NCBI RefSeq assembly: GCF_004103825.1
Contig: NZ_RYFI01000003.1
Coordinates: 23,297 to 84,628, forward strand
Direction of reading: 5' to 3'
Source of the DNA: Hansschlegelia zhihuaiae
GTDB lineage: Bacteria; Pseudomonadota; Alphaproteobacteria; Rhizobiales; Methylopilaceae
Length of the DNA stretch: 61,332 nucleotides
Below are positions 30,574 to 59,973 of the stretch, piece by piece; position 1 is the stretch's first letter; every line of letters begins with the position of its first letter. A model generated the notes under the pieces. It saw nothing but the letters and a program-made list of their open reading frames with translations. It searched no databases and was not told the origin of the DNA. The translations under genes were made by a program, and so were the position numbers.

Positions 30574-30717
30574 GAAAGACGCCTTCCTCGATGACACGGG
30601 GCGCTTGCGCTCGCGCCTGACGCGTCTCGCGCCGGCGGGCCGCAGCCCTTTTTCTATCGCCCCATTATGCACCTTCGAGGATGGCCGCGCCAAGGCCGCG
30701 ACCAAAGTCACATCCGC

Positions 30718-31401: not shown

Positions 31402-33020
31402 GAGCCGGCTCCGATGGCGACGCGCGGGGTCAGCGAAGGAAGAATGATGGAGACGGTGGTGCCGGAGCGTCGCCCAGGCGCGGCGGTGCGGCTGTCGATC
31501 GCGATGCGTCCGCCGTGCCGCTCGACGATCCAGCGCGCGAGCGCGAGGCCGATGCCGAAGCCCGATCCTTCCTTCTCGCCGCCGCCGCGGTAGAAGCGCT
31601 CGAACACATGAGGCAGGTCGGCGGCCGGGATGCCTTCGCCGTCGTCATCGACCGAGAGCGTCGCGCCTTGGGGCCCGGAGGCGACCGACAGCCTGATCTC
31701 GCTTCCGGGAGACGAATGCCGCACTGCGTTCGAAATCAGTCCTTCCACCACCTGTCTCATCCATTCGGCGTCCGCCTCGACCATCTCGTCGGCGAGAGCG
31801 TCGGCCACGATCTCGATCTGCCGCGCCTTGGCCGCGGGGGCGACGCCCTCCCGCGCCTGGGAGGCGATCTCGGCCAGAGACATGGGCTCGAACTCGAGAT
31901 CAAGTTGGCCGTTCTCGGAGCGCGCGACCCGCAGCAGGTCCTCGACGCGCCGGTGCAGCCTGCGCGCACGGACCCGGATCGTCGCTAGCGCTGCGGCGAG
32001 ATCCTCGCGGTCCGGCTTGCCCCGCAGCGTCACGTCCGCCTCGCCGAGAATGACGGTGAGCGGCGTCCTCAATTCGTGGCTCACATCCGTGAAGAAGCGT
32101 CGCCGCGCGCGATCGGTGTCGGACAGCCGCTCATTGGCCCGGCGAAGCTCGGCGGTGCGGGCGTCGACGATCTCCTGCAGCCGCGACTGGGCGGACAGCA
32201 GGCGCGCCTCGCGCCGCGACAGATGAAGCGCCATGCGGTTGAAGCGGGTCGTCAGCAGGCTGAGTTCGTCATGGCCGCGTACGGCGAGGCGGATGTCTGT
32301 GCGGCCGCGGGCGATGTCGGCGGCCGCGGCCGCGACCTCCGACAGACGCAGCAGAAGGGGGCTGGCGACCGCGCGGTAGAGCAGGAAGGCGAGCAGCGCC
32401 GCGGCGACGACCGCGAGAGTCGCGATCGGGGCGAGCCGCGCCCTCAGCTGCGCCATCGCGGCCTCGGCGTCGCGCGCCGCCACCCGCTCGCCTTCGATCG
32501 CCTGGCTGAGCGACGGGCCGAAGCTTCCCGCGAACATGTCGAGCGCGATCCGGACCGAATCGGCCGCCTGCGGCTGGCCTTCCCGCGCGTCGCGGATAAG
32601 CTGCATCACCTGACGGTCGAGCACGTCGAAGCTCGCCTTCATGTGGGCGAGCATCCGCCCGCGCGAGGCGGCGATGATCGCGCCGTCGCGCTCCCCGCGA
32701 CGGCTCACTTCGCCCGCCACGTTCTGGCTGAAGCGCGCCATCGTTTCCTGCACGCGCTTGCGCGGCAGCGACAGGCGATCGGTCTGGAGTTCGCGCGACT
32801 GCGTCGTCTGGAGCGCCGCGAGCGCGTAGTCGCCGACCCGGCTCGAGATCGCCGACAGATCCTCGAGCCGGCGCTGGGCGGAGGACAGCTCGCTCACATG
32901 GTCGTCGGCGAGCGCGAGCGTCCAGACCAGCGCGGCGGCCGCGGCGCCGGTCGTCAGCACGACGGCCGCCACCAGCACGGCGAGCCGGAACCGCAAAGAT
33001 CTGAGCGAGTGGCGCCACAT
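31398..33020 (-). CDS. membrane sensor histidine kinase
   Basis: 540 aa from the ATG at 33020 (a TTG at 33038 is also open). TM1 is near residues 13-36, then a ~160-residue mostly helical periplasmic sensor region, TM2 near 198-219, and HAMP at about 220-272. The HisKA box is FFTDVSHELRTPLTVI with H315. The ATPase domain has N box ISNAVRHSS, G1 DDGEGIP, F box FERFYRG and G2 GFGIGLALARWIVE. The four-helix-like sensor resembles MCP/NarX-type ligand domains and has no cysteine. Likely partner of the next gene; signal unknown. Confidence 0.92.
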   Translation of the reverse strand: MWRHSLRSLRFRLAVLVAAVVLTTGAAAAALVWTLALADDHVSELSSAQRRLEDLSAISSRVGDYALAALQTTQSRELQTDRLSLPRKRVQETMARFSQNVAGEVSRRGERDGAIIAASRGRMLAHMKASFDVLDRQVMQLIRDAREGQPQAADSVRIALDMFAGSFGPSLSQAIEGERVAARDAEAAMAQLRARLAPIATLAVVAAALLAFLLYRAVASPLLLRLSEVAAAAADIARGRTDIRLAVRGHDELSLLTTRFNRMALHLSRREARLLSAQSRLQEIVDARTAELRRANERLSDTDRARRRFFTDVSHELRTPLTVILGEADVTLRGKPDREDLAAALATIRVRARRLHRRVEDLLRVARSENGQLDLEFEPMSLAEIASQAREGVAPAAKARQIEIVADALADEMVEADAEWMRQVVEGLISNAVRHSSPGSEIRLSVASGPQGATLSVDDDGEGIPAADLPHVFERFYRGGGEKEGSGFGIGLALARWIVERHGGRIAIDSRTAAPGRRSGTTVSIILPSLTPRVAIGAGS

Positions 33021-33126
33021 CACGTGTGCCTTCGGCAAGCGAGGTCGAATCTGCGGCGCGTTCGGTTCGCAATCATCGGGGCCGTCTCGTACGGCGCGCC
33101 GCCGCGTGGACGCGACCCGCGCGCCG

Positions 33127-33414
33127 TCACTTTTTCTTCAGAGCCTTCCGTGCGTCTTCGACCGCGTCGAGGCACTCGTCATATTCCTGCTCTCCCTTCT
33201 CGCGTTTGGCGACCCGGAGCGCGGTCTTGAGGGCGTCGGCCACCGGCCCGGGCTGCTCCTTGGCCGATTCCGCCGTGATCATCGCGATGCCCGAGTCGCA
33301 ATCGGCGGCGGCGTCCGCGCGCGCCTCAGGGCACGCCAGGGCGGCGGCCGCCACGAGACCGAGCGCGAGCAGGCGTCCGGCCGGGCCTTTCAAGTTGCTG
33401 CGCGGATGCGTCAT
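33127..33414 (-). CDS. small secreted helical protein, operon with cupredoxin-like gene
   Basis: 95 aa. The signal peptide is about residues 1-34 (ALACPEARA-DAA). The mature domain is short and helical with two cysteines (AADCDSGIAMI and EYDECLDAVED) and a Lys-rich tail RKALKKK. The start at 33414 overlaps the upstream gene stop (ATGA). No family recognised. Confidence 0.72.
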   Translation of the reverse strand: MTHPRSNLKGPAGRLLALGLVAAAALACPEARADAAADCDSGIAMITAESAKEQPGPVADALKTALRVAKREKGEQEYDECLDAVEDARKALKKK

Positions 33415-33857
33415 TTCGCGACGATCGCTCCCGTCATGCCCTTCGACTCGAGGCCGTCGATCCACCATTTGAACGAGCCCGGACGGATCACCACGAACTC
33501 CAGGCGGATTGCGCCCTCGTCGTCCCATTCGAGATGGTGGGGCGCGCCGGGTCCGTGGATCTCCAGATGATTGATCACGATCTGGTTGATCCAGATATTG
33601 CGGAAGAACTCGGGCGCGAAGAACTTGTATTCTTTGCCGCCCTTGGAGATGATGTCGAGCTGATAGGCCTTGCCGGATTCAAGCTCGAAGTCCTTCTGGC
33701 TCACGGCGTAGTCGTCACCGTTGTCGCCGCCGAGCACGAGGTCCGGCAGCGTCTGCCGACCTTTGGCGAGATCGACCGCAGCAGCCGGGGCGCTTGCCAT
33801 GAGAGCGGCCGCGACCGGGACTGCGAGCGCCGCCATCCGGACAAATCCTGACATCAT
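33411..33857 (-). CDS. cupredoxin-fold-like exported protein lacking copper ligands
   Basis: 148 aa. The signal peptide ends near residue 27 (APAAA-VDL). The mature part has a cupredoxin-like layout: FELESGKAYQLDIISKGGKEYKFFAPEFF, then a C-terminal PGSFKWWIDGLESKGMTGAIVAK that follows the pattern of blue-copper C-termini (G-T-Y-x-x-x-C-x-x-x-x-H-x-x-x-G-M-x-G-x-I). The Cys and His positions are Ile/Asp and Glu here, and the protein has no cysteine at all. It is therefore unlikely to hold a type 1 copper. Candidate periplasmic binding or structural partner, perhaps for the sensor kinase just downstream. Confidence 0.72.
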   Translation of the reverse strand: MMSGFVRMAALAVPVAAALMASAPAAAVDLAKGRQTLPDLVLGGDNGDDYAVSQKDFELESGKAYQLDIISKGGKEYKFFAPEFFRNIWINQIVINHLEIHGPGAPHHLEWDDEGAIRLEFVVIRPGSFKWWIDGLESKGMTGAIVAK

Positions 33858-34664: not shown

Positions 34665-35177
34665 ATGGCGAAGATCACCAAGACCCTCATCGGCGAATCG
34701 CTTGTCGGCGACGGCAACGAAGTCGCCCACATCGACCTGATCATCGGTCCGCGCGGCTCGACGGCTGAGTCTGCGTTCGTCAACGCGCTGACCAACAACA
34801 AGGACGGCTTCACCTCGCTGCTCGCGGTGGTGAGCCCGAACCTGCTCGCCAAGCCGAACACGATCCTGTTCAACAAGGTCACCATCAAGGACGCCCGCCA
34901 GGCCGTCCAGATGTTCGGCCCGGCGCAGTACGGCGTCGCCAAGGCGGTCGTCGACTGCGTGGCGGACGGCACCATTCCCGAGGACGAGGCCGACGACCTG
35001 TTCATCTGCGTCGGCGTGTTCATCCACTGGGAAGCGGCCGACGACGCCAAGATCCAGCAGTACAACTACGAGGCGACCAAGGAATCCATCAAGCGCGCCA
35101 TCGCCGGCGAGCCGAAGGCTCGGGACGTCGTGACGCAGTCGGCGACCGCGAAGCACCCCTTCGCCGCCAACGCCTAG
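34665..35177 (+). CDS. fae: formaldehyde-activating enzyme
   Basis: 170 aa, the standard Fae length. It condenses formaldehyde with tetrahydromethanopterin to methylene-H4MPT in the cytoplasm, protecting the cell and feeding oxidation. The catalytic His is H22 in [14 protein letters not shown]. Other hallmark text: [57 protein letters not shown]. The start follows GGGAGG by nine bases. It is a single-gene unit followed by a strong hairpin, which fits its very high expression in methylotrophs. Its H4MPT partners (mtdB, fhc) lie 20-26 kb away. Confidence 0.98.
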
Positions 35178-36786: not shown

Positions 36787-36796
36787 GAAGAACGCC

Positions 36797-37798
36797 TCAG
36801 ACTTTCGGTGACCAGAAGAGACCGGGGTCGAAGCGCGGGTTCGGGCCGACGAACTCTGCCCCGCCGAGTTCGGACAGCAGCCCATAGAGCTTCTGGGACG
36901 AGGCGAGCTCCGCCTGTCCCCAAGGTCCCGGCACGCCTGCCCGGAAGTAGTCCCGCAGACGCGTGAACTCGGCGTCGGACTGCACATGCATGCTGGGCTT
37001 CAGCCTCGACCAGGCCTCGTCGGACGTCCTGAGGGTCTCGTTGGCGGCCTTGACCCCCTGGAAAAAGGCTTCGAGCTCGCCGCCCGCGGTCTCGAACAGG
37101 GTTTCACGCCAGACAAAGCCGACCATCGGCGGCTGAGGCTTCAGGCCAAGGTCCGCCATCACGTCCGCGACGTCGATCATCCGTCTGAAGCCCTCGGCGT
37201 CGAGCCGGGCGGCGAAATTCCAAAAAGTCAGGACCGCGTCGATGCGCCCGAGCCGAAGCTGCTCGTTGAGCAGCGGCGGGGCGCCGAACACCGGCTCCAC
37301 CATGGCGGCGATGTCGCCCTCGACTTCCTTGTGGGCCCAGGCGCGGAACAGCAGCCAGCTCTTGTCGATCGGACCGCCCGCGACGCCGACCTTCTTGCCC
37401 TTGAGGTCCTTGACGCTCGCGATCTTCGAATCTTTGCCCAGCATCACCGCGCCGAGCGCGGACGAATAGGGCGCGAAGCGGAAAGGCTCGCCTTCGATGC
37501 GCCGGCGCATCGCCCAGGGCCAGTCGCTGACGGTGAGGTCGCACTGGCCGGCCTGGAGCGCGACGGTGAGAGCCTGCGTCGACGCGAGTTCGAGCCGCTC
37601 GAAGGGCGCGGGCTTTCCGGCCTTCTCGCTTTCGGCCTTCATGGTGTCGAGCAGCCAGTTGACCGTGCCGAATTTCAGCGTGGCGATCTTCAGGGGCCTG
37701 GCCGCGCGCGCCGGCCACGCCGGCAGGGCTGCGGCGAGGGCCGCCGCCGAACCCGCGACGACGACCTGGCGTCTGGTCAGGCGCGTCAGATCCGCCAT
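36797..37798 (-). CDS. ABC transporter substrate-binding protein (NMT1/SsuA-like)
   Basis: 333 aa. The N-terminus LTRRQVVVAGSAAALAAALPAWPARA is a signal with a twin Arg. The mature domain has the type-II binding fold: PLKIATLKFGTVNWLLDTM, LASTQALTVALQAGQCDLTVSDWPW, VKDLKGKKVGVAGGPIDKSW and INDAVLTFWN-like text (RIDAVLTFWNFAARL). The pocket-lining SDWPWAMRRR would place Trp and Arg residues near ligand, suggesting an anionic or aromatic compound. Its start overlaps the stop of the preceding DUF2380-type gene (TGATG). Ligand unknown. Confidence 0.88.
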   Translation of the reverse strand: MADLTRLTRRQVVVAGSAAALAAALPAWPARAARPLKIATLKFGTVNWLLDTMKAESEKAGKPAPFERLELASTQALTVALQAGQCDLTVSDWPWAMRRRIEGEPFRFAPYSSALGAVMLGKDSKIASVKDLKGKKVGVAGGPIDKSWLLFRAWAHKEVEGDIAAMVEPVFGAPPLLNEQLRLGRIDAVLTFWNFAARLDAEGFRRMIDVADVMADLGLKPQPPMVGFVWRETLFETAGGELEAFFQGVKAANETLRTSDEAWSRLKPSMHVQSDAEFTRLRDYFRAGVPGPWGQAELASSQKLYGLLSELGGAEFVGPNPRFDPGLFWSPKV

Positions 37799-38325
37799 CA
37801 CTGCGCTCCGCTCTCCGGAAGCGGGTCCTTCAGGATGTTCCGCGTCATCAGATATTTCGCGCCATGGGCCCAGGTCTCGTCGGTGTTGCCGCGGATGTCG
37901 GCGCTGCCGCCACGCACCAGCCTGCCGGTCTTCACGTCGACGATCTGGACGTTGATGTTGAGGATGAGGTTCGAGACCTTCTGGATATGGCCCACCACCG
38001 CGAGATCGGCGCCGACCTTGCCGGCCGCGTCCCGCGCGCAGGGCAGGCATTCGCGCAGCGATTTCACGTCCTTGACCTCGTCCCGAGCCGGAGCGACGTC
38101 GACGAGCTCTACATGCGCGCCCTTCAGGAAGTCCTTCACCTGTTCTTCCGTGCGCACGACCCGCTTGGTCTGGTCATCCCGCACGCCGTTGATATCGCCT
38201 TCCGCGCTTGAATCGATGAACTCGAAATCGAACACCGCCGCCTTCAACGGCGCCGCGTGGGCGGGATGGATGATGAACGGCGTCGCCAGCACGGCGGCGA
38301 GCGCCCAGGCGGCAGTGGCGCGCAT
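37798..38325 (-). CDS. exported DUF2380/DUF3280-type protein, first gene of ABC operon
   Basis: 175 aa. The signal peptide ends at IHPAHA-APL. The mature part reads KAAVFDFEFIDSSAEGD, VVDVAP-type strands (HVELVDVAPARDEV), then a CLPCARDAAGKVGADLAVVGHIQKVSNLILNINVQIVD segment that fits the DUF2380/DUF3280 pattern (an alpha/beta fold like TolB N-terminal or CsgG-related proteins). The two cysteines in CLPC could be redox-active or bind metal. The start has GGGAG upstream. Coupled to the binding-protein gene, so probably a periplasmic accessory of the importer. Confidence 0.8.
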   Translation of the reverse strand: MRATAAWALAAVLATPFIIHPAHAAPLKAAVFDFEFIDSSAEGDINGVRDDQTKRVVRTEEQVKDFLKGAHVELVDVAPARDEVKDVKSLRECLPCARDAAGKVGADLAVVGHIQKVSNLILNINVQIVDVKTGRLVRGGSADIRGNTDETWAHGAKYLMTRNILKDPLPESGAQ

Positions 38326-38662: not shown

Positions 38663-39922
38663 GTGAAGACCGTCTCCATAGGCCTCACCCTCATGGCGGC
38701 GGTGCTGGCCACAGCCGTTTGTCCTGCGGCGGCTCAGGTGCCGGTAGATTCGGCCGCCGGGGCGCCGAAGGTTCCCGGCCCGCCTCCGAAGAACGCCCCA
38801 GCGCCGGTCGAGTTCACGTTCGGCGTGCTTCGCCAGTTTCCGGCGAACCCGCCTTGGTGGAACAACGTCGTCACGATCCCGCCCAAGGACGACGGCGTCG
38901 CGGGAGCCGAACTCGGCATCGCGGACAACAACACGACCGGCCAGTTCCTGCGCCAGTCCTACAAGCTCGTCGCCTCCGAGCAGGTCGCCTTCGAGGACGA
39001 CCCGATGCCGGCCTTCAACCGCATCCTGGAGAGCGGCGCGAAGTTCATCGTCCTGATGGTGCCCGCCGACGCGCTGCTCAAGATGGCGGACGCGGCGAAG
39101 GACAAGGACGTCATCCTGTTCAACGCGGCGGCGACGGACGACCGGCTGCGCCAGAAGGACTGCCGCTACAACGTGCTCCACGTCGCCCCGAACCGCGCGA
39201 TGCTGACGGACTCGCTCGCCCAGTATCTGGTGTCGAAGCGCTGGTCGAACTGGTTCATGATCGTCGGCCGCCAGCCGGAGGACAGGCTCTACGCCGACGC
39301 GGTCCGGCGCTCGGCGAAGAAGTTCGGCGCCAAGATCATCGAGGAGAAGACCTGGAACTTCGGCCCCGACGTGCGCGAGACCGGCAACGACGTCATCCCG
39401 GTGTTCACGCAAGGCGCCGACGAGGCCGACATCATCATGGTCGCGGATGAACTCGACGAGTTCGGCGACCTGATCGGCTGGCGCTCCTGGGACCCCCGGC
39501 TCACCGCCGGCACCGCCGGCCTGTCGCCCGCGACCTGGCACGTCACCGTCGACAGCTGGGGCGCGGCCCAGCTGCAGAACCGCTTCTTCAGGCACGCCAA
39601 GCGCGGCATGCGGCCGCTCGACTTCCAGGCCTGGCTCGCAATGCGCACGATCGGCGAGACTGCGGCGCGGGTGAGGTCGAACGACACGAGGCAGCTGCGC
39701 GACTACATCTTCGGCCCGCGCTTCGAACTCGCGGGCTTCAAGGGCCAATCCTTCTCCTACCGGCCGTGGGACCACCAGCTGCGGCAGCCGATCGTGCTGG
39801 CGCAGGCCGCAGCCCTCGTCGCGACCGCCCCGCAGGAGGGCTTCCTGCACCAGACCAATCCGCTCGACTCGATCGGCTTCGACAAGCCGGAGAGCCAATG
39901 CCGCTTCCCTGCGACGCAGTGA
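38663..39922 (+). CDS. PQQ-associated ABC substrate-binding protein (LutA-like)
   Basis: 419 aa from a GTG. The signal peptide ends at AAAQ-VPV. The mature protein has a periplasmic-binding fold of the branched-chain amino-acid type: FGVLRQFPANPPWWNNV, GAELGIADNNTTGQFL, MPAFNRILESGAKFIVLMV, KDVILFNAAATDDRLRQKDC, WFMIVGRQPEDRLYADAVRR. This matches the substrate-binding member of the PQQ-alcohol-dehydrogenase ABC set, which in Methylorubrum (lutA) is needed for lanthanide transport. Ligand here is inferred (lanthanide or chelate) from family and from the xoxF cluster nearby. Confidence 0.87.
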   Translation: MKTVSIGLTLMAAVLATAVCPAAAQVPVDSAAGAPKVPGPPPKNAPAPVEFTFGVLRQFPANPPWWNNVVTIPPKDDGVAGAELGIADNNTTGQFLRQSYKLVASEQVAFEDDPMPAFNRILESGAKFIVLMVPADALLKMADAAKDKDVILFNAAATDDRLRQKDCRYNVLHVAPNRAMLTDSLAQYLVSKRWSNWFMIVGRQPEDRLYADAVRRSAKKFGAKIIEEKTWNFGPDVRETGNDVIPVFTQGADEADIIMVADELDEFGDLIGWRSWDPRLTAGTAGLSPATWHVTVDSWGAAQLQNRFFRHAKRGMRPLDFQAWLAMRTIGETAARVRSNDTRQLRDYIFGPRFELAGFKGQSFSYRPWDHQLRQPIVLAQAAALVATAPQEGFLHQTNPLDSIGFDKPESQCRFPATQ

Positions 39923-39993
39923 TCCATCGCCGCGCCGCGGCCCTAGACGCAAGACGCGGCGTTGAAGCCGCGCGCCTTCCGGGAGACCGTTCA

Positions 39994-40992
39994 ATGACCG
40001 TTCGCAATCGCCTCCGCGCGCCGTTCGCGGCGCTCGCCGTCGGCGCCGCCCTGTCGGTTCTGACCGGCGCCGCGACGCCGGCCGCGGCGGGTAAGATCTT
40101 CGTCACCAACGAGCGCGACCACACCATGACGGTGCTCGACAGCGAGAGCCTCAAGGTGACGGACACAATCAAGACCGGCCGCCGCCCGCGCGGCGTCATC
40201 GCGAGCCCGGACAACAAGCTGATCTATGTCTGCGCGAGCGACGACAACCGCGTCGAGGTCTACGACGCGCAGACCGGCAAGATGATCAAGACCCTGCCCT
40301 CGGGGCCCGATCCCGAGCTGTTCATCCTGCATCCCTCAGGCAATCCGCTTTACATCGCCAACGAGGACGACGCGCTGGTCACGATCGTCGACACCGCAAA
40401 AGGCAGCGTCGTCGCCGAGATTCCGGTCGGCGTGGAGCCCGAAGGCATGGGCGTGAGCCCGGACGGCAAGACGCTGGTCACGACCTCCGAGACCACCAAC
40501 ATGGCGCATTTCATCGACACCGACACGAAGCAGATCGTGGAGAACGTGCTGGTCGACAGCCGCCCGCGCTTCGCCGAGTTCACGCCGGACGGCAAGTTCG
40601 TGTGGGTGTCGGCCGAGGTCGGCGGGACCGTCTCGGTGATCGAGAACGGCACCCATGAGGTCGTGAAGCGGATCGAGTTCAAGATCCCGGGCGTCACCGC
40701 CGAGGCCATCCAGCCGGTCGGCGTGCGCATCACCAAGGACGGCGCGCGCGCCTTCATCGCGCTCGGACCCTCGAACCGCGTCGCCATCGTCGACACCAAG
40801 ACCTACGAGGTGAAGAGCTACCTGCTGGTGGGCCAGCGCGTCTGGCAGCTCGGCTTCTCGCCGGACGAGAAGAAGCTCTACTCGACGAACGGCAACTCGA
40901 ACGACATCTCGGTGATCGACGTCGAGAGCGGAAAGGTGACGAAGTCCGTCACCGTCGGCCGCTCGCCCTGGGGCGTCGTGGCGATCCCGTAG
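39994..40992 (+). CDS. PQQ-associated seven-bladed YVTN beta-propeller protein
   Basis: 332 aa. Signal peptide to about residue 32 (PAAAG-KIF). At least six repeats of about 42 residues with YVTN/DGK signatures follow, for example KIFVTNERDHTMTVLD, GVIASPDNKLIYVCAS, GMGVSPDGKTLVTTS, FAEFTPDGKFVWVSAE, LGFSPDEKKLYSTNGN and the closing GRSPWGVVAIP. This is the exported propeller that accompanies the PQQ-linked ABC transporter in methylotrophs and pseudomonads. Binding partner or ligand is unknown; it may assist metal or cofactor delivery. It lies 71 bases after the binding-protein gene. Confidence 0.9.
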   Translation: MTVRNRLRAPFAALAVGAALSVLTGAATPAAAGKIFVTNERDHTMTVLDSESLKVTDTIKTGRRPRGVIASPDNKLIYVCASDDNRVEVYDAQTGKMIKTLPSGPDPELFILHPSGNPLYIANEDDALVTIVDTAKGSVVAEIPVGVEPEGMGVSPDGKTLVTTSETTNMAHFIDTDTKQIVENVLVDSRPRFAEFTPDGKFVWVSAEVGGTVSVIENGTHEVVKRIEFKIPGVTAEAIQPVGVRITKDGARAFIALGPSNRVAIVDTKTYEVKSYLLVGQRVWQLGFSPDEKKLYSTNGNSNDISVIDVESGKVTKSVTVGRSPWGVVAIP

Positions 40993-41088
40993 GAACGTCG
41001 CGCTCGACGCGCGCGCGAAAAGGCTTAAGTCAACGGTCGACGGCCGCGCCCTCGCCGGAACGGCCGCTCATCGCGTCGGACAAGCAAT

Positions 41089-41877
41089 GTGACTGTCACC
41101 AGCCAAATTCCTCCCCCTGCTTCCGCGGCGCTCAAGGTGAGCGGCGTGACGCATTCCTTTGGCTCCAAGACGGCGCTGGACGACGTCTCGCTCGAGGCGC
41201 CGGCCGGCGCCTTCACGGCGCTGGTCGGCCAGAACGGCGCCGGCAAGACCACGCTGTTCTCGCTGATCACCCGGCTCTACAACAACACCAGCGGCTCGAT
41301 CGAGGTGCTGGGCGAGGATGTGCGGCGTTCGCCCGCGCGGGCGCTGGCGCGGCTCGGCGTCGTGTTTCAGGCGCGCACGCTCGACCTCGAACTGACCGTC
41401 ATGCAGAACCTGCTCTATCACGCGGCGCTGCACGGCATCGGCCGCCGCGAGGCCAAGCGCCTCGCCGCCGCGGCGCTTGGCCGCGTCAGCCTCGAATCGC
41501 GCGCCTCCGACAAGGTGAGGGCGCTCTCCGGCGGCCAGATGCGGCGCGTCGAGATCGCCCGCGCGCTGCTGCACGGCCCGGCCTTCCTGCTGCTCGACGA
41601 GCCGACCGTCGGCCTCGACATCGGCTCGCGCCGCACGCTGATCGACGAGGTGCGCCGGCTCATCACGGAAGACGGCATCGGCGTGTTGTGGGCGACGCAT
41701 CTAACCGATGAGATTGCCGCGGCCGACCGCGTCGTCGTGCTGCACCAGGGCAAGGTGATGGCCAAGGGAACGCCGCGGGAGCTCTGCGCGCGCGCCAAGA
41801 CGGACGACGTCGGAGCGGCCTTCATGACGATCGTCGGCGAGGGCGAGCGCCCCGCCCCTCAGAAGGCCTCGGCATGA
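41089..41877 (+). CDS. PQQ-associated ABC transporter ATP-binding protein (LutE-like)
   Basis: 262 aa from a GTG at 41089. Walker A LVGQNGAGKTTLFSLI, Q-loop VVFQARTLDLELTV, signature LSGGQMRRVEIARAL, Walker B FLLLDEPTVGLD and H-loop WATHLTDEI are all intact. The family is the ATPase of the PQQ-alcohol-dehydrogenase/lanthanide ABC transporter (ABC-2 type, DrrA-like). It overlaps the permease gene by four bases (ATGA). Confidence 0.92.
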   Translation: MTVTSQIPPPASAALKVSGVTHSFGSKTALDDVSLEAPAGAFTALVGQNGAGKTTLFSLITRLYNNTSGSIEVLGEDVRRSPARALARLGVVFQARTLDLELTVMQNLLYHAALHGIGRREAKRLAAAALGRVSLESRASDKVRALSGGQMRRVEIARALLHGPAFLLLDEPTVGLDIGSRRTLIDEVRRLITEDGIGVLWATHLTDEIAAADRVVVLHQGKVMAKGTPRELCARAKTDDVGAAFMTIVGEGERPAPQKASA

Positions 41878-42734
41878 GCGCGATCGCCGACGTCACGGCC
41901 CGCCCGCAGCGCGAGGTCACGGCAAAAGGCTATCTGGTCTGCCTCACGGGCATCGTTTGGCGTGAGGGGCTGCGCTTCCTGCACCAGCGCGGACGCTTCC
42001 TGTCGGCGCTGGTGCGGCCGCTGGTCTGGCTCTTCATCTTCGCGGCGGGCTTCCGGGCGACGCTAGGCGTCTCCATCATCCCGCCTTACGAGACCTACAT
42101 CCTCTACGAGGTCTACATCGCGCCCGGCCTGATGGCGATGATCCAGCTGTTCAACGGGCTGCAGTCCTCGCTGTCGATGGTCTATGACCGCGAGGTCGGA
42201 GCGATGCGCATCCTGCTCGTCAGCCCGTATCCGCGCTGGTTCCTGCTGGTGTCGAAGCTCACCGCCGGCATCGCGGTCTCGCTGCTGCAGGTCTACGCCT
42301 TCCTGTTCGTCGCCTATTTCTGGGACGTCGCGCCCGACAGCCACTGGGGCTACGTCACCGTGCTGCCGGCGCTCCTGCTGACCGGCTTCATGCTGGGCGC
42401 GATGGGCCTCGCCATGTCCTCTGTGTTCAAGCAGCTCGAGAACTTCGCGAGCGTGATGAACTTCGTGATCTTCCCGATGTTCTTCGCCTCCTCGGCGCTC
42501 TACCCGCTGTGGCGGGTCCAGCAGTCGAGCGAGCTGCTGTTCGCGATCTGCCGGTGGAACCCCTTCACCCATGCGGTCGAGCTGATCCGCTTCGCGCTCT
42601 ACGGCCAGATCGAGTGGACGGCGCTCGCCGTGGTGTCGGGCTGCTCGATCGTGTTCCTGCTTGCGGCCGTCTTCGCCTACGACCCCTCGACCGGCCTCAC
42701 GGCCCGCCGCGGCGGTCCGGACGCGGCGAAGTGA
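41874..42734 (+). CDS. PQQ-associated ABC transporter permease (PedC/LutF-like)
   Basis: 286 aa ABC-2 type membrane protein. After a cytoplasmic N-terminus with VWREGLRFLHQRGRFLSALVRP come six hydrophobic segments (for example LVWLFIFAAGFRATLG, LTGFMLGAMGLAMSSVF, FVIFPMFFASSALYPLW). The conserved RWNPFTHAVELIRFALYG near the C-terminus is typical of PedC/NodJ-type permeases. It forms a transporter with the preceding ATPase. ABC-2 membrane proteins are usually exporters, so transport direction in lanthanide uptake systems is an open point. Confidence 0.92.
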   Translation: MSAIADVTARPQREVTAKGYLVCLTGIVWREGLRFLHQRGRFLSALVRPLVWLFIFAAGFRATLGVSIIPPYETYILYEVYIAPGLMAMIQLFNGLQSSLSMVYDREVGAMRILLVSPYPRWFLLVSKLTAGIAVSLLQVYAFLFVAYFWDVAPDSHWGYVTVLPALLLTGFMLGAMGLAMSSVFKQLENFASVMNFVIFPMFFASSALYPLWRVQQSSELLFAICRWNPFTHAVELIRFALYGQIEWTALAVVSGCSIVFLLAAVFAYDPSTGLTARRGGPDAAK

Positions 42735-42810
42735 GACGCGGCCGCGCGACAGACAAAGACGGCTCCCGCGCCGAACGGCCGGGCAAGGCCGCGACGCTTC
42801 GGGAGACGAC

Positions 42811-43731
42811 ATGATGACGACGTCCCTTCGCAGGACTGACAGGGCCCTTTGGGCGCGCCTCGCGCCGGCCGTGAGCCTCGCCGTGTTGGTCACGGTCTCG
42901 CACGCCACGGCGCAGGGCGGCGCCGGCGGGCCAGGCGGCGGCGGCCAGGGTGGCCTGAGCCCAGACACGCCTGTGCTCGCGCCGACGCAGCCCGGGGTGA
43001 ACGGCCCGCAGGGGCCGGCCGCCGACGCGCCGAAGCCCAAGACCCCCCTGCCCCCGCGCGACACGCCCCGCGCCCAGCAACCCGGACAGGAGGCCGGAGG
43101 CGCCGGCCCGAAGACCCCCCTGCCCTCGCGCGATACGCCGCGCGCGCCGCAGCCGGGCCAGAACAGCTACGCGGCCCAGAACCCCGACTGGCCTTGCGTG
43201 CAGGTCAAGGTCGCGTCGCTGAGCTACGGCCAGATGTGGGGCGGCCCGCCGCTGGAGGACGCGCTGAAGACGTGGCGGGACGACAAGGAGGTCGCCGACC
43301 TCGTCTCGACGCTCGCCGCGCGCCGGACCTCGATGGAGGACGCCAAGGCCGCGATCGACAAATTCGCGAAGCGCGCCGGCGATGACGCCGACGCCGAGCT
43401 TTCCAAGCTGTTCGCCGGCGTGTTCGACGAGATCAACCAGCACCGCTCCCAGATCGTCGCCGGCATCGAACGCTACGCCCGCAAACAGCGCGACCTTTCG
43501 GAGCGGATCAAGCAGCGCAGTCTCAAGATGGCCGAGACCCAGAAGGACATGGCCGCGCAGATGAGCCCCGAGGGTCAAAAGGAGCAGGAGGCGCTCAACT
43601 GGGACACCCGCATCTATGAGGAGCGCTCGCAGGCGCTGACCTATGTCTGCGAGAGCCCCGTGCTGCTCGAGCAGCGCGCCTTCGACATCGGGCGGGAGAT
43701 CCAGTCCCGCCTGTCCCAGAAATCGCAGTGA
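42811..43731 (+). CDS. Pro-rich exported protein of the lut-like cluster
   Basis: 306 aa. Signal peptide to about residue 34 (HATAQ-GGA). Residues ~35-115 are disordered and Gly/Pro-rich and contain two near-identical copies of KTPLPxRDTPRAxQPGQ in tandem. The rest is mostly helical: VQVKVASLSYGQMWGGPPLEDALKTW, then a long charged coiled coil (residues ~190-300). Cysteines occur at WPCVQV and YVCESP. I know no functional assignment; an exported gene occupies this place in related clusters. A periplasm-spanning tether is one possibility. Confidence 0.8.
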   Translation: MMTTSLRRTDRALWARLAPAVSLAVLVTVSHATAQGGAGGPGGGGQGGLSPDTPVLAPTQPGVNGPQGPAADAPKPKTPLPPRDTPRAQQPGQEAGGAGPKTPLPSRDTPRAPQPGQNSYAAQNPDWPCVQVKVASLSYGQMWGGPPLEDALKTWRDDKEVADLVSTLAARRTSMEDAKAAIDKFAKRAGDDADAELSKLFAGVFDEINQHRSQIVAGIERYARKQRDLSERIKQRSLKMAETQKDMAAQMSPEGQKEQEALNWDTRIYEERSQALTYVCESPVLLEQRAFDIGREIQSRLSQKSQ

Positions 43732-44684
43732 CGGGCGCCGATCGGCGCTCCGTCAGTTCCGGCCTTGCGGCCGCGCTCGTCGCGGCCTCCGCTCCCGCCG
43801 CCGCGCAGACGGCGGCCGTCGAGGTGCTCGCGGCCGGCTCGGCCGGCGAAGGCGACGACCAACTCGCCCGAGCGGTCGCGGAAGGATTGAACGCCACGCG
43901 GCTCGTGCCGCGCGCGACGGCCGTGAACGTGCCCCGCGAGACCATGGCGATCTCGGATTTCATCGACGGCAGGCGGCCGCGCGCGAGCCTGATGGTGATC
44001 AGCCTGTCGACGGTCGGCGCGCTCGCGATCTCCGGCCACGACAAATATCTCAACAGCGTGCGCCCGATCGCGCGGCTCGTCGGCGAGCATCAGCCGATCG
44101 TCGTTCCCGCGGCGTCGCCGTTCGGCACTCTCGCGGATCTCATGGCCGCGCTGCGGCGGGACCCCTCCTCCGTCGGATGGACGGGGCGGCCATATGGCAG
44201 CGCCGATCACCAGCTCGCGCTGCTGCTGACGAGCGCGGCCGGGGCCGATCCGCGCGGCCTCGCCTACCGCCCTGTCGACACCTCGGCGCGCGCCGCCCTC
44301 GACGCCCTGACGGGCGCCGCGACGGTCGCGAGCGGCGCGCTCGGCGAGTTCCGCCACCAGATGCGGGGCGGAACGCTGAGGGCGCTCGCGCTCGCCTCGC
44401 CTGCGCGGGCGCCGGGCGTCGACGCGCCGACGCTGCGCGAGCAGGGCGTCGACATCACGATGATGAACTGGCGCGGGGTGGTCTCGCGCGGCGCGGTCGG
44501 ACCAACGCTGCTCGGCCGCTTCGACGAGGCGATCGACAGGCTCGTTCAGGTCTCGGGCTGGCGCCAGCTCCTCGCGCAGCGCAGCTGGGAGGATCTCTAC
44601 GAGCCGGCGGAACCGTTCAGGCGCTTCATCCAGGATGAGCGCGCGCGGGTCGGCGCGCTCATGGCGCGGCGGGGCCCGAGCTGA
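43728..44684 (+). CDS. TctC/Bug-family periplasmic binding protein, orphan
   Basis: 318 aa from a GTG overlapping the previous stop (GTGA). A short signal-like start (SSGLAAALVAASAPAAAQ) leads into the TctC fold: VEVLAAGSAGEGDDQLARAVAEGL, FIDGRRPRASLMVISLSTVGALA, PIARLVGEHQPIVVPAASPFGTL, WTGRPYGSADHQLALLLTSAAG and MMNWRGVVSRGAVGPTLLGRFDEA. Such proteins usually bind carboxylates for a TctAB permease, but no tctAB genes are present. Its place at the end of the lut-like operon suggests a chelator- or metal-linked ligand; this is inference. Confidence 0.83.
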   Translation: MTGADRRSVSSGLAAALVAASAPAAAQTAAVEVLAAGSAGEGDDQLARAVAEGLNATRLVPRATAVNVPRETMAISDFIDGRRPRASLMVISLSTVGALAISGHDKYLNSVRPIARLVGEHQPIVVPAASPFGTLADLMAALRRDPSSVGWTGRPYGSADHQLALLLTSAAGADPRGLAYRPVDTSARAALDALTGAATVASGALGEFRHQMRGGTLRALALASPARAPGVDAPTLREQGVDITMMNWRGVVSRGAVGPTLLGRFDEAIDRLVQVSGWRQLLAQRSWEDLYEPAEPFRRFIQDERARVGALMARRGPS

Positions 44685-44694
44685 CGGCTCGGCC

Positions 44695-45285
44695 TCATTG
44701 AGACGCCGGACGGGCAGGTAGCTTGTAGGGCTCAGCCTTCTCAAGCGGCAGCCCGGCCTTCTCCCAGCCGTCGGTCCCCTCCGGGTACCAGAGGACGTCG
44801 CGGTAGCCCCATTCCATGGCGCGCTTGCCGGCGTTCCACGACATCCAACAGTCGGCGCGGCAATAGAACAGCAGCGGGCGCGTCATGTCGCCGCCCGACA
44901 ACGTCGCGAGGCTGTCGCGGAAATAGGCCGTCATCTCAGCGCTGATGCCGCCATAGCCGACATTGGCGAGCCAGGAGCTGCCCGGCACATGCTCGCGCGG
45001 CTTATCGCGCCAGACGGTGCCGGGCGGAAGGTCCTTCGGCCGCTGGTCGCGCGGCATGGTGTCGACGAACACCGCGCCCTTGTCGCGCCATAGCCGCTCC
45101 GCCTCCTCGGTCGGGACCACCCGCGCGCCGGCGAGCGTCGCCGGCGTCGGCGAGCGGTAATCGTCCATCTTGTAGCCGGAGGGCTCCGGCGGCGGCGCGG
45201 CTCCCGCCGAGCCGACCGACAGCGCGACGACCGCGACCGCGGCGCCCATCAGGCCCGCCGTCCGCCGCGCCGCGCCCGCGATCAC
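44695..45285 (-). CDS. PQQ-dependent catabolism-associated CxxxCW rhodanese-like protein
   Basis: 196 aa from a GTG overlapping the xoxJ stop (GTGA). Signal peptide to about residue 32 (GSAGA-APP). The mature rhodanese-like domain has AVFVDTMPRDQRPKDLPPGT, then LLFYCRADCWMSWNAGKRAMEWGY and YPEGTDGWEKAGLPL. The motif here is C-R-A-D-C-W, followed by MSWN, as in the exported family tied to PQQ alcohol dehydrogenases. The two cysteines could act as a redox or sulfur-transfer pair. Role in quinoprotein maturation is suspected but not known. Confidence 0.9.
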   Translation of the reverse strand: MIAGAARRTAGLMGAAVAVVALSVGSAGAAPPPEPSGYKMDDYRSPTPATLAGARVVPTEEAERLWRDKGAVFVDTMPRDQRPKDLPPGTVWRDKPREHVPGSSWLANVGYGGISAEMTAYFRDSLATLSGGDMTRPLLFYCRADCWMSWNAGKRAMEWGYRDVLWYPEGTDGWEKAGLPLEKAEPYKLPARPASQ

Positions 45286-46142
45286 TGGGTGACCACGATC
45301 GGCTTGTCCTGCTCGTCGACCAGCGGAACGTGGAACGACGCCAGGATCTTGTTGATCTCTGCCTGGTTCTTCGAGATGAACTCGTTCAGCCGATGCTTCC
45401 AGTTCTCCTCGCCGGGCCGCACGCCGAAGGTCAGGCGGTAGGACATCGGCGGTCCGCCCTGTTCCTTGACCAGCGAAGTCATCGACAGGCCGCCGGCCTT
45501 GTCGGCGAAATAGCCGCCGATCGGTCCCCACAGCACGCCCGCGTCGATCTCGCCGGACTGCACGTCCTTGATCATGTCCTCGGCCGGCGAAAAATAGCGG
45601 CGGTCGATCGTCAGCGAATAAGGCTTCGCCTTGGCCATCAGGCCATATTTGTTGAGATGGCTCGCGGCCGGCGTGCCGGCGATGACGCCGACGCGCTTGT
45701 CCTTGAGCTTCTCGTCGGAGAGCCTGTCGACGCCATCCAGCGGTCCGCCCTCCTTGACGATCAGGATCGAGGTCGAGCGCATATAGGCGTTGGTGTTGAG
45801 ATAAGGGTCCGCGCCCTGCGCGACGCCCAGCACCACGTCGCAGCGCTTGATGCCGAGCGTCATGCGGTAGAAGCCGGTCGCCTGCGGGAACCAGGTGTAG
45901 ACCAGCGGGATTCCGAGATCCTTGGCGAGCAGCTCCGCGATCTTGTTCTCATAGCCCTCGCCCTTCTCGTTCGAGAGCGGCATGTCGGCCGGATCGGCGC
46001 ACACCCGAAGCGTCGCACGGTTGACGAGGTCGGAAGTCTGGGCGGCCGCGGGGCCGGTCGCGAGGCCGAGCGCCGCGGCGAGCGCGCCGAGCGCGAGCCT
46101 CCTCCGCGGCGATGCATGGATGGCGATCTTCTGCTTGGTCAT
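45282..46142 (-). CDS. xoxJ: XoxJ/MoxJ-type periplasmic binding protein of methanol dehydrogenase
   Basis: 286 aa from the ATG at 46142, which has GGAAGG upstream (a GTG two codons earlier is possible). Signal peptide to PAAAQ-TSD. Family 3 binding-protein fold: TLRVCADPADMPLSNEKGEGYENKIA, YTWFPQATGFYRMTLGIKRCDVVLGV, RVGVIAGTPAASHL, DVQSGEIDAGVLWGPIGGYFA. XoxJ/MxaJ is thought to help assemble or activate methanol dehydrogenase rather than import a solute. It lies downstream of xoxF, separated by 346 bases and two hairpins, and is coupled to the CxxxCW gene. Confidence 0.92.
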   Translation of the reverse strand: MTKQKIAIHASPRRRLALGALAAALGLATGPAAAQTSDLVNRATLRVCADPADMPLSNEKGEGYENKIAELLAKDLGIPLVYTWFPQATGFYRMTLGIKRCDVVLGVAQGADPYLNTNAYMRSTSILIVKEGGPLDGVDRLSDEKLKDKRVGVIAGTPAASHLNKYGLMAKAKPYSLTIDRRYFSPAEDMIKDVQSGEIDAGVLWGPIGGYFADKAGGLSMTSLVKEQGGPPMSYRLTFGVRPGEENWKHRLNEFISKNQAEINKILASFHVPLVDEQDKPIVVTQ

Positions 46143-46397
46143 GTCCACCTTCCGCCGCCCGCCGAGCCGCGGGCCTTTTGTCGTTGACCCGACGCTTGGG
46201 CGCGTCGAGGTGATTCCGCCTGTCGCGTTCGGGATGGCCGGGGACCGGCCGGGCGATCTGGGCGACCCGCTTTAGATAGGGCGTCGCGCCCGGCTGGAAG
46301 GGCCGGAAGACCGTGCATTCCGCCGGCCGCCAACCAGCCTTCGACGTTTCGTCCGGGGGTGATCCTCGGCTCAGCGCCTGCTCTCGGCCTCAGATAC

Positions 46398-46434
46398 GAA
46401 AAACCCGGCCTTCGGTTTGCGCCGAAGGCCGGGT
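46398..46434 (-). terminator. rho-independent terminator after xoxF (second hairpin)
   Basis: On the minus strand a 13-bp stem ACCCGGCCTTCGG / CCGAAGGCCGGGT with a 6-base loop is followed by TTTTCG (the adjacent T of the stem makes a run of five). Strong intrinsic terminator for xoxF. Confidence 0.9.
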
Positions 46435-46446
46435 GGAGGATGAAGC

Positions 46447-46473
46447 GGGCGTGGCCTTCTTTGGGCCACGCCC
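46447..46473 (-). terminator. first hairpin after xoxF
   Basis: A perfect 10-bp stem GGGCGTGGCC / GGCCACGCCC with a 7-base loop, 15 bases after the xoxF stop. It lacks a T run, so it may protect the xoxF mRNA 3' end or assist the second hairpin. Confidence 0.65.
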
Positions 46474-46488
46474 TTGGTCGTTTGACCG

Positions 46489-48297
46489 TCAGTTCGTCGG
46501 CAGCGTGAACACAGTCAGCTGGCCGCCGAGAGCGGTGTACTGCGACAGAGCCGCGTAGCCGCCGACCGCGCCGAGACCGTCGGTCGCGTTGGTCAGGCCG
46601 GCCGCAAGGCCGATGCCCGCCCAGCCGCCGACGCCCGAGAGCACCGCGACGTACTGCTTGCCCTTGTGCTCGTAGGTCATGACGTTGCCGATGATGCCCG
46701 ACGGGGTCTTGAACTTGTAGAGTTCCTTGCCCGTCTTGGCGTCGACCGCCTTCAGGTAGCCTTCGAGCGTGCCGTAGAACACGATGCCGCCCGAGGTCGC
46801 CAGAGCGCCGGACCACACGGAGAACTGCTCCTTGTTGGACCAGACGATCTTACCCTTCTTGCCGTCCCAGGCGATGAAGTTGCCCATGCCGCCATGCGAG
46901 TTGGGGGCCGGGAACATCGAGAGGGTCGCGCCGACATAGGGCTGGCCGGCGGTGTACGAGACACGGAACGGCTCGTAGTCCATGCAGACGTGGTTGGTCG
47001 GGACGTAGAACAGCTCGGTCTCCGGCGAGTAGGCCGCAGGCTGCTGGTCCTTGGTGCCGAGCGCCGCCGGGCAGATGCCCTGCGAGTTCACGTCTTCGCC
47101 GTTCTGCTCGGTCGAATACTTGGAGACGACGAGCGGACGGCCGTAGGTCTTGGACGACTTGTCCATGTCGACCTTGGTCGCCCAGTTCACGACCGGGTCG
47201 TACTTCTCGGCGACGAGAAGCTCGCCGGTGTCACGATCGAGCGTGTAGCCGAAGCCGTTACGATCGAAGTGCGTGAGGAGGTTGCGCTCCTTGCCGTCGA
47301 TCTTCTGCTCAGTGAGGATCATCTCGTTGATGCCGTCGAAGTCCCACTCGTCGTGGGGCGTCATCTGGTAGACCCACTTGGCCTTACCGGTGTCGACGTC
47401 ACGCGCGAAGATGGTCATCGACCACTTGTTGTCGCCCGGGCGCTGCTTCGGGTTCCACGTGGACGGGTTGCCCGTGCCGTAGAACATCAGGTTCGTCTTG
47501 GGATCGTAGGAGTACCAGCCCCAGGTCGAGCCGCCGCCGATCTTCCACTGATCGCCCTGCCAGGTCTTCAGGGAGGAGTCCTTGCCGACGGGCTTGCCGT
47601 GCTCGGTGGTCTTCTCGGGGTCGATCAGCATCTCGTCGTCCGGGCCGGTCGAGTAACCGCGCCAGACCATCTTGCCGTCGGCGATGTTGTAGGCCGTGAC
47701 ATGGCTGCGGACGCCGAACTCGGCGCCGGAGATGCCGACGATGACCTTGTCCTTGACCGGCAGAACGGTCGCGGTGTTGGTCTCGCCCTTCTTCGGGTCG
47801 CCGTTCACGACCGACCACTTCTTCTGGCCGGTCTTGGCGTCGAGCGCAACGACGGTGGTGTCGGCCTGATGCAGGAAGATGATGCCGTCGGCGTAAGCGA
47901 GACCGCGGTTGACGGTATCGCAGCACATCACCGGGATCACGTTCGGATCCTGCTTCGGCTCGTACTTCCAAACGATCTTGCCGCCCTCGTCGAGGTTGAG
48001 AGCGAAGACGTTGTTCGGGAACGGCGTATGAAGGTACATCATGTTGCCGATCACGATCGGCGAACCTTCGTGGCCGCGCAGCACGCCGGTCGAGAACGTC
48101 CAGGCCACCTGAAGCTTCTTGACGTTGTCCTTGTTGATTTCGTCAAGCTTCGAGTAACGGTGGTTGGCGTAGTCGCCCGTCTGAATGCCCCACTGCTTGG
48201 GGTCCTTCGTAATCTGCATGACGCTGTCGTTCGCCAAGGACGGCAACGCCATGCAAGCGGCGCCCATCAGGCCCGCTGCGATTGCGACTTTGCGCAT
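46489..48297 (-). CDS. xoxF: lanthanide-dependent methanol dehydrogenase XoxF
   Basis: 602 aa. Signal peptide of about 22 residues (ALPSLA-NDS). It is a periplasmic eight-bladed PQQ propeller that oxidises methanol to formaldehyde or formate. Visible active-site residues (precursor numbering) are the vicinal disulfide C125-C126 in [11 protein letters not shown], metal ligands E193 (GAEFGVRSH) and N277 (GTGNPST), catalytic D319 and the extra D321 in HDEWDFDG. Asp at 321, where calcium MxaF has Ala, is the hallmark of lanthanide enzymes. The tryptophan-docking blades (for example [15 protein letters not shown]) are intact. Sequence resembles the XoxF5 clade. No xoxG is adjacent. Confidence 0.98.
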
Positions 48298-48610: not shown

Positions 48611-49591
48611 CTAACGCCATTCGAGTTCTCTATAGACCGCGATGGCATTCCGCGCGTTGAACTCGTCGAACAGCGCCCAGGCCTCCCGCTCCGAAACGCC
48701 GGCCTTTTCGGACGCCTCCCGGAGCGACGCGCCGGCGTCGAGCAGCGTCTCGACGTCTTTCCGAAGCCGGTCGAAATAGCGCTGCTGGGGCGCGAGAGCG
48801 TCCGGCCATGACGCGGAGGCCGGGCCGTGGCCCGGAACGACCCGCGCCGCGGACTGTTCCCTGAGCCGCGCCATCAGCCGCACCCAGCCCTCGAAGGAGC
48901 CGTCGACGCTCGGCAGATGGCCCATGAACAGAAGGTCGCCAAGAAACCAGGTGCCGCTGGTCTGGTCGAACACTGTCAGGTCGTTGTCGGTGTGCGCCGT
49001 CGGCCAGGCTTCGAGCTCGAGGGACCTTCCGCCGAGGTCGAGCGTCAGCTTGTCCGTGACCTGGACGTCCGGCGTCACGATGTCACCGAGGTCTTCGTCG
49101 AAGCGTTCGCCGAGCGCGCGCTTGGCCCCGTCGACATAGGACTGCGCGCGGGCATCGAGCGCGCGCTTGAACTTGGCGTGCGCCACGAACTGCGCGCCCG
49201 TCCCGCGGAACGCGGCGTCGCCCAGCGCGTGGTCCGGGTGCATGTGGGTGTTGACGACATATCTGACCGGCAGGTCCGTGCGCGCCTTGACGCTCGCAAG
49301 CAGCCTCTCGCCAGCCTCCTTCGTGTTGCCCGTATCGATCACCGCGACGCCGTCGCGCCCGACCACGAAGCCGACATTGGCGATCGCGCCCATATTCGAG
49401 GGCGCGAGCAGCGCATAGGGCGCCTGATAGACGAAGACGCCGGGGGCCACTTCGGTCGTCGGCAGAGGCTCGGCCGCGCGGGCCTCCGTCGCGCAGAGGG
49501 CGGCCAGCGCCACGAGCCACGCCGCCGCGATCCGCGACGCCCGTCCGGTCATCTCGCCGGGCAGGCCGGCGGACGATGAAGCACGCCTCAT
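48611..49591 (-). CDS. quinoprotein relay system zinc metallohydrolase (MBL fold)
   Basis: 326 aa. The start at 49591 has GAGGGAGA upstream; the inner ATG at 49552 has a weaker site. Signal peptide ends near TEARA-AEP. Metallo-beta-lactamase zinc motifs are NTHMHPDHALGD, HTDNDLTVFD and VPGHGPAS. The family accompanies PQQ dehydrogenases and the SoxYZ-like carrier and is proposed to hydrolyse a thiol-linked intermediate; reaction unproven. The C-terminal ~60 residues form a helical tail (ASLREASEKAGVSEREAW). It lies upstream of xoxF on the same strand. Confidence 0.88.
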   Translation of the reverse strand: MRRASSSAGLPGEMTGRASRIAAAWLVALAALCATEARAAEPLPTTEVAPGVFVYQAPYALLAPSNMGAIANVGFVVGRDGVAVIDTGNTKEAGERLLASVKARTDLPVRYVVNTHMHPDHALGDAAFRGTGAQFVAHAKFKRALDARAQSYVDGAKRALGERFDEDLGDIVTPDVQVTDKLTLDLGGRSLELEAWPTAHTDNDLTVFDQTSGTWFLGDLLFMGHLPSVDGSFEGWVRLMARLREQSAARVVPGHGPASASWPDALAPQQRYFDRLRKDVETLLDAGASLREASEKAGVSEREAWALFDEFNARNAIAVYRELEWR

Positions 49592-49825
49592 GCGTCGTCT
49601 CCCTCAGCCGGCTCTTCGGGCCGGTCCGGAGACAGCCATAACGGCTTGCGCCTCCGCCGTCGAACCTCCGGGAAGACCGTCGCCGGGATTCCGTCGCCGC
49701 GCGAGGCTCGGATCCGGCGCGCGGGCGCGGTCCGGTTGCGGTCGAGGGCGAGTTGGAATGACGCCCCGGCGCTGGTAGCTTCCGCGCCCCGATGATCGAG
49801 ACGACGGCGGTAGGACCCCGGCGAC

Positions 49826-53110: not shown

Positions 53111-53179
53111 GCCGGAAGCGCCTGCTCGCGGTCAAGGATTGCGTGCTATCATTGTAGAAATAACGCCCGGACCGTCGAG

Positions 53180-59954: not shown

Positions 59955-59973
59955 CCGAACCTCAGGAGCTTCC

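Follow-up and report, generated by a model that had tools for sequence, protein, structure and literature searches.

The stretch of DNA analyzed here (61,332 nucleotides of contig NZ_RYFI01000003.1 from Hansschlegelia zhihuaiae, assembly GCF_004103825.1; hereafter the window) carries the genes of a Lut-type ATP-binding cassette (ABC) transporter facing those of XoxF, a methanol dehydrogenase of the lanthanide-dependent type, and of the periplasmic binding protein XoxJ. The cluster is otherwise known; the reportable variant is an XoxF system that, throughout a genus, has no recognizable XoxG, the cytochrome regarded as the electron acceptor dedicated to XoxF. We regard it as probable that the window carries a block for lanthanide-dependent methanol oxidation in which XoxF operates without XoxG and its electrons most likely pass to a cytochrome cL of the MxaG type.

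Absence of a recognizable xoxG

The cluster shares xoxF, xoxJ, the CxxxCW protein, and the metallohydrolase with the xoxF-xoxG-xoxJ clusters of other Alphaproteobacteria. It differs from them in xoxG (the family of PDB 6onq), which was not found in the 13 genomes of the genus beyond one partial match, described below. The 340 bases between xoxJ and xoxF hold no open reading frame (ORF) of at least 25 residues with a CxxCH motif, and this motif is in no predicted gene of the window. For comparison, 78 lut loci outside the genus were collected around LutF, namely, 77 named loci, after three duplicates were dropped, and one family member, and their neighboring genes were sought by tblastn (E 1e-6); 34 of the 78 are from Bradyrhizobium by record title and some are cut by contig ends, so that the counts are not independent. 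In 26 outside loci with both xoxJ and xoxF, the two are adjacent in 23 and xoxF is 7–11 kb off in 3, and a CxxCH ORF lies between the two genes in 23/23 of the adjacent cases. The same count in the genus is 0/9 (the window and eight further loci, one of them with a fragmented xoxF).

A profile built from 14 CxxCH ORFs of the outside xoxJ-xoxF gaps matches the PDB entry 6onq, “Cytochrome c XoxG”, at E 9e-74. Among the 13 genus genomes, it yields a single match, of 17 bits over 30 positions in the present genome (E 0.007), which appears to be a bare heme motif. Three of the genus genomes (G009, G012, and G013) are assembled in one or two contigs. Across the 18 genomes of the family, where all candidates were scored, the profile finds two XoxG copies in G002, a genome without an MxaG match. 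At the level of the order, where XoxF was called at ≥67% identity and scoring took in at most 4 (XoxF) or 11 (XoxG) candidates from each genome, XoxG is seen in 64 of the 65 XoxF-bearing genomes outside the genus; in the single one without it (G204), xoxF is followed by only 420 bases of contig. MxaG was tried as a query for XoxG in this genome and dropped, as the two barely match (BLAST E 2e-4 or worse). A search of open-licence literature text, with figures outside the search, found no description of the loss of xoxG in this genus; XoxG trees are given in Fig. 6 of one study (PMC5723320), whose strain list includes Methylopila.

The XoxF enzyme

XoxF, whose gene stands next to xoxJ in the window, has 602 residues, and the 10-residue stretch with the metal-site Asp pair starts at residue 314. 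Within the motif DEWDFDG, the two Asp residues are at 319 and 321; we assign the catalytic-type role to D319 and the lanthanide-type role to D321. The initial annotation had singled out D321 as the lanthanide residue, and its position is confirmed, with the lanthanide-dependent XoxF of PDB 6oc5 as the best structural match. The full ligand set (E193, N277, D319, and D321), including the extra Asp, fits the published ligand list of PedH. As judged from its sequence, XoxF is a lanthanide-dependent methanol dehydrogenase, with predicted activity with pyrroloquinoline quinone (PQQ) and lanthanide.

Cytochrome cL and the route of electrons

MxaG is found in 13/13 genus genomes, and its PDB relatives are cytochromes cL (2gc4, 2d0w, and 2c8s). 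In the present genome, MxaF and MxaG are on contig C59, in what is presumably an mxa operon. A second, unlinked cL gene (L175–L181) occurs in seven of the 13 genomes, and the search of the other six, including this one, gave no second MxaG-like cytochrome. In a tree rooted at the midpoint, these second copies group together in a single clade (support 98/99). The simplest reading would be a duplication before the genus spread and a later loss in six genomes, the present one among them, with which the tree is compatible without proving it. In several genomes, these orphan paralogs adjoin a glutamine synthetase gene. They were also considered as parts of methylamine dehydrogenase clusters, an idea that was dropped, since the genes around them (glutamine synthetase and others, as judged by sequence) give no hint of it.

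The most likely acceptor is cytochrome cL of the MxaG type, which would serve the calcium enzyme as well as the lanthanide one: MxaG itself in this genome, and possibly the second paralog in the seven relatives. More tentatively, and with somewhat less than an even chance, the genus as a whole may have been rewired, such that XoxG was lost and cL became the shared acceptor of both dehydrogenases, first with the second paralog and then, in some species, with MxaG alone.

Several points weigh against a shared cL. In M. extorquens (Methylorubrum extorquens) on lanthanum (La) medium, loss of xoxG reduces growth to 0.04 per h, the value also given for the xoxF double loss (wild type 0.16), with mxaG present; MxaG is thus no simple substitute there. 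The mxa promoter of this organism is repressed by La, from 323 to 61 units, which may be why MxaG fails to replace XoxG, and regulation must then differ in the genus studied here. A comparison of 9 XoxF sequences of the genus with 22 from outside it, at strict thresholds, found no genus-specific fixed change, and the enzyme thus bears no trace of a partner switch. Finally, the cytochrome searches were confined to the XoxG and cL families.

A different explanation is that a c-type cytochrome of neither the XoxG nor the cL kind takes the electrons of XoxF in the genus. The cytochromes proposed for XoxF do vary widely between bacterial groups, from XoxG1 to XoxG4, and the cL search of the present genome returned three weak further matches (E 6e-5 to 0.04). 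However, no CxxCH motif occurs among the predicted genes of the window, and cL is present in every genus genome. We consider another cytochrome to be rather unlikely, if the most serious competitor to cL.

The Lut module and the direction of transport

The ABC gene set is, by homology, the known lanthanide module lutA-B-E-F-G, also described as pedA1A2BC. Genes for a substrate-binding protein, a beta-propeller, an ATPase, and a permease of PQQ-associated subfamilies are present in order, and the four NCBIfam models exceed their curated cut-offs, which bears out the link to lut genes and PQQ dehydrogenases drawn in the initial annotation. Homologs of LutC, LutD, and LutG are all found in the window; these names follow from matching the gene order in Methylobacterium sp. 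Leaf91 to that in M. extorquens AM1. The name lutB was likewise assigned to the YVTN propeller by gene order, and the M. extorquens lut paper terms lutB an exported protein (PMC7391723). LutG has no match in Pfam or NCBIfam. It is 44% identical to the gene product after lutF in Methylobacterium sp. Leaf91 and 33–60% identical to homologs outside the genus, with only the C-terminal part, from about residue 100, aligning. Its core is modeled as a long helical hairpin (predicted local distance difference test, pLDDT, 92), for which a PDB search gave no match at E ≤ 0.001.

Lanthanide-dependent growth is reported to be impaired in lut (PMC7391723) and pedA1A2BC (PMC6839425) mutants. Mutants of M. 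extorquens in lutE and lutF do not grow on methanol with La, La deposits are seen in the periplasm of the lutA, lutE, and lutF mutants, and LutD is stated to have been shown to bind lanthanide (PMC7391723); Pseudomonas putida without pedA1A2BC has an about 100-fold higher La need (PMC6839425). As in the AM1 lut cluster (PMC7391723), homologs of lutA, B, E, F, and G follow in that order, and lutC, lutD, LutH, and LanM homologs are in the genome. Unlike in AM1, lutCD stand apart from the rest, next to fae and accompanied by a two-component system, another contig carries lutH and lanM, a TctC gene is added, and the set is convergent with xoxFJ, with no xoxG found. The pedA1A2BC genes of P. putida KT2440 (PMC6839425) likewise comprise a substrate-binding protein, YVTN protein, ATPase, and permease adjoining a quinoprotein dehydrogenase gene. 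There, however, the module serves the ethanol dehydrogenase PedH, and no homolog of the methylotroph TonB receptors was found, in contrast to the present genome.

From gene content, homology, co-occurrence, and the failure to find an XoxG-family gene, we infer the following scheme of transport, maturation, and electron flow. The window would carry the principal chromosomal part of a system for lanthanide-dependent methanol oxidation. LutABEF and the exported LutC, LutD, and LutG, with LutH and LanM encoded elsewhere, would take up lanthanide, probably as a chelate; XoxJ and the CxxxCW protein would assist in the maturation or activation of XoxF, the PQQ-lanthanide enzyme of the periplasm, which would work without XoxG in this genus and pass its electrons to cytochrome cL. 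Published work on relatives has Lut serving lanthanide uptake, and XoxJ and XoxG supporting XoxF.

The transporter might instead export a component, such as a chelator or a folding helper, to the periplasm rather than import lanthanide. ABC-2 permeases are usually exporters, and the next-best NCBIfam families of the permease and ATPase are the efflux subfamilies DrrB and DrrA, which counts against import. Yet, a substrate-binding protein is present, which is the argument for import made in PMC6839425, and the periplasmic La deposits in the M. extorquens mutants (PMC7391723) also speak for uptake. We find export unlikely.

LutH, lanmodulin, and a third quinoprotein on a second contig

The initial annotation recorded no TonB receptor or lanmodulin gene, which is correct for the window and not for the genome. 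A genome-wide search rejects the notion that the organism lacks lutH and lanM, as homologs of both are on contig C2. The LutH homolog (L018:13397–16081) aligns at 37% over 820 residues (E 9e-165); seven TonB receptors were found in the genome, of which one besides this homolog matched LutH (E 7e-5). The lanmodulin gene lies about 9 kb away, and its product has a signal peptide and four EF loops, as read by eye, with a 12/13/12-residue spacing that we take to be that of LanM. The PDB lanmodulins matched are 8dq2, 9pi2, and 6mi5. Hans-LanM of Hansschlegelia quercus (8dq2, PMC10232371) is matched over the full mature chain at 158 bits (E 8e-46) and Mex-LanM more weakly, at 63 bits; the protein falls short of the NCBIfam lanmodulin cut-off (103.5 vs 135 bits).

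Beside the LutH homolog is a third quinoprotein gene (L018:11433–13247, minus strand), found in 12/13 genus genomes and adjoining lutH in 8 of the 12. All 11 intact copies that were aligned have Gly (WGYD) where the catalytic-type Asp would stand, and Arg aligns at the Glu metal ligand in the copy of this genome (PedH alignment). The product may be a quinoprotein without activity that has a part in uptake or sensing. On its other side is a second TonB receptor (L018:8877–11138, minus strand), matched in the relatives’ loci L168, L171, and L174. In genome G009, several quinoprotein genes are in fragments, which looks like frameshift errors of assembly.

Retention of lanthanide genes bears on the idea that XoxF chiefly regulates the mxa operon, or senses lanthanide for it, and carries little methanol flux, so that a dedicated cytochrome would be dispensable. 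XoxF1/XoxF2 are reported to be required for mxa expression in M. extorquens, and the negative result of the XoxG profile search is in line with such a role. On the other hand, the active-site residues of XoxF are intact, the protein is 85–95% identical in ten other genus genomes, and LutABEF and XoxJ are kept, as are LutH and LanM in this genome. A mainly regulatory XoxF thus seems improbable to us.

Layout and co-occurrence across genomes

All 13 genus genomes have the lutA-B-E-F-G set; it converges on xoxJ-xoxF in 9 of them, and in the remaining 4 the two groups are separate. At the outside loci, lutA (67/78), lutB (70/78), lutE (78/78), and lutG (60/78) are found near LutF. xoxJ lies within 11 kb of LutF at 57 of the 78 loci, downstream and convergent in 47, upstream and co-directional in 6, and otherwise placed in 4; xoxF lies within that distance at 29. 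The gene-order comparison in related genomes proposed in the initial annotation therefore recovers its layout, which is common in Alphaproteobacteria and so not new. Among the 297 genomes of the order, LutF is present in 76/76 with XoxF and in 28/221 of the others, and the orthologs recur together; a failure to co-occur with xoxF, which the initial annotation had named as refuting its reading, was thus not seen. The grouping is therefore not by chance: neighborhood without joint function could be argued from the 4/13 genus genomes in which xoxFJ are not near lut, but this is very improbable given xoxJ convergent downstream of lut in 9/13 genus genomes and 47/78 outside loci and the complete LutF-XoxF co-occurrence.

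The description of the locus as one functional unit is borne out for lut and xoxF by their co-occurrence and needs qualifying elsewhere, since xoxFJ can be remote from lut, the CxxxCW gene was found near lut in only 6/13 genus genomes, and the TctC gene was found at lut in this genus only, within the loci searched. The metallohydrolase gene is near lut in 8/13. A DUF3280 gene near lutF is found at 44/78 outside loci vs 2/13 genus genomes, and a full-text literature search gave no paper on DUF3280 together with methanol dehydrogenase.

Gene map and accessory genes

ORF starts and ends were re-read from the sequence, and the proteins were scanned against NCBIfam, at curated cut-offs, and Pfam (Table 1). 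The nine genes of the initial annotation are where it had placed them, on convergent strands separated by 10 bases (44685–44694), and 7/9 of the proteins pass a curated NCBIfam cut-off, mostly of models named for PQQ-dependent dehydrogenase systems. The lutB start was taken as 39994, while the ORF itself opens at 39766. The functional reading of the initial annotation was mostly right, and the cluster as it described it is the known one; lutC/lutD at 33127–33857, the DUF3280 gene, the metallohydrolase gene (48611–49591), and the absence of xoxG go beyond it.

Table 1. Features of the window, with the evidence for each
Feature	Coordinates	Strand	Evidence or remark
lutA / pedA1, periplasmic substrate-binding protein	38663..39922	+	TIGR03863 463 bits; PF13458
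lutB / pedA2, YVTN beta-propeller exported protein	39994..40992	+	TIGR03866 507 bits
lutE / pedB, ABC ATPase	41089..41877	+	TIGR03864 336 bits
lutF / pedC, ABC-2 type permease	41874..42734	+	TIGR03861 386 bits; 61–92% identity to relatives
lutG, exported helical protein, Pro-rich N-terminal part	42811..43731	+	position after lutF
TctC/Bug-type solute-binding protein	43728..44684	+	PF03401 65 bits
CxxxCW rhodanese-like exported protein	44695..45282	-	TIGR03865 227 bits
xoxJ, periplasmic binding protein	45282..46148	-	TIGR03871 282 bits
gap, 340 bases	46149..46488	-	xoxG site in other Alphaproteobacteria
xoxF, predicted lanthanide-dependent methanol dehydrogenase	46489..48297	-	TIGR03075 774 bits; PDB 6oc5 1152 bits
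quinoprotein relay system zinc metallohydrolase 2	48611..49591	-	TIGR04559 382 bits
exported DUF3280 protein, divergent from lutA	37798..38325	-	PF11684 149.5 bits
lutC homolog	33411..33857	-	61% over 127 residues to Leaf91 gene between lutB and lutE, E 4e-52
lutD homolog, 95 residues	33127..33414	-	61% over 46 residues to 80-residue Leaf91 gene before lutE, E 4e-9
sensor histidine kinase, periplasmic-looking region	31398..33038	-	HisKA, HATPase_c, HAMP; downstream of lutD
OmpR-like response regulator	30718..31401	-	same run as lutC-lutD
exported protein, no family name	29863..30711	-	same run as lutC-lutD
small exported protein, end of lutC-lutD run	29522..29866	-	homologs near 43/78 outside lut loci
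fae, formaldehyde-activating enzyme	34665..35177	+	named from its sequence

The TctC gene follows lutG in 11/13 genus genomes, and a homolog was seen at 0/78 outside lut loci, so that it was rejected as part of the general lut system. In ten of these genomes, the present one among them, the gene has an open frame, and the eleventh (L147) gives one unbroken 288-residue match; the nine others aligned are 35–60% identical to the window protein. Its model has the TctC/Bug fold (pLDDT 85), with 4x9t, 2qpq (Bug27), and 6hke (MatC) among the nearest PDB entries. Speculatively, the protein might act in the periplasm as the receptor of a lanthanide chelate of the carboxylate type.

The lutC stop and lutD start overlap (ATGA), and the two genes begin a closely packed minus-strand run (29522–33857) that continues with the kinase, the OmpR-like regulator, and a pair of exported proteins and lies beside a gene that we take, from its sequence, to be fae. 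Seven genomes of the genus have the run next to fae (the window, G006, G009, G010, G011, G012, and G016), with the kinase 64–74% identical in frame. It was not in the fetched flank of G007, G008, G013, G014, and G017, and the contig of G015 ends there. From its position, the kinase/regulator pair is a candidate lanthanide or one-carbon (C1) sensor pair.

Next to lutA, at 35318–38050 on the minus strand, are the genes of another ABC transporter (NMT1/SsuA-like binding protein, permease, and ATPase); homologs of its permease are near lut in 12/13 genus genomes and at 50/78 outside loci. Beside the xox genes, 49792–61332 presumably holds genes of the methanofuran/tetrahydromethanopterin formaldehyde pathway, as named from sequence.

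Implications

If cytochrome cL is indeed shared by the two dehydrogenases, expression of mxaG has to persist while lanthanides repress mxaF. The lanthanide switch would then be wired differently in this genus, possibly via the kinase and regulator whose genes follow lutC and lutD in the same run. Hans-LanM, which has been studied with a view to separating rare earths, comes from Hansschlegelia, which lies within this genus or next to it. With XoxF, XoxJ, and the Lut set retained and no recognizable XoxG, the genus is a natural experiment on what XoxG is needed for, and it makes directly testable whether the carrier of the calcium enzyme does both jobs. It could show whether cytochrome cL is able to serve the calcium enzyme and the lanthanide enzyme alike, and in what way a lanthanide switch operates if one cytochrome is common to the two dehydrogenases.

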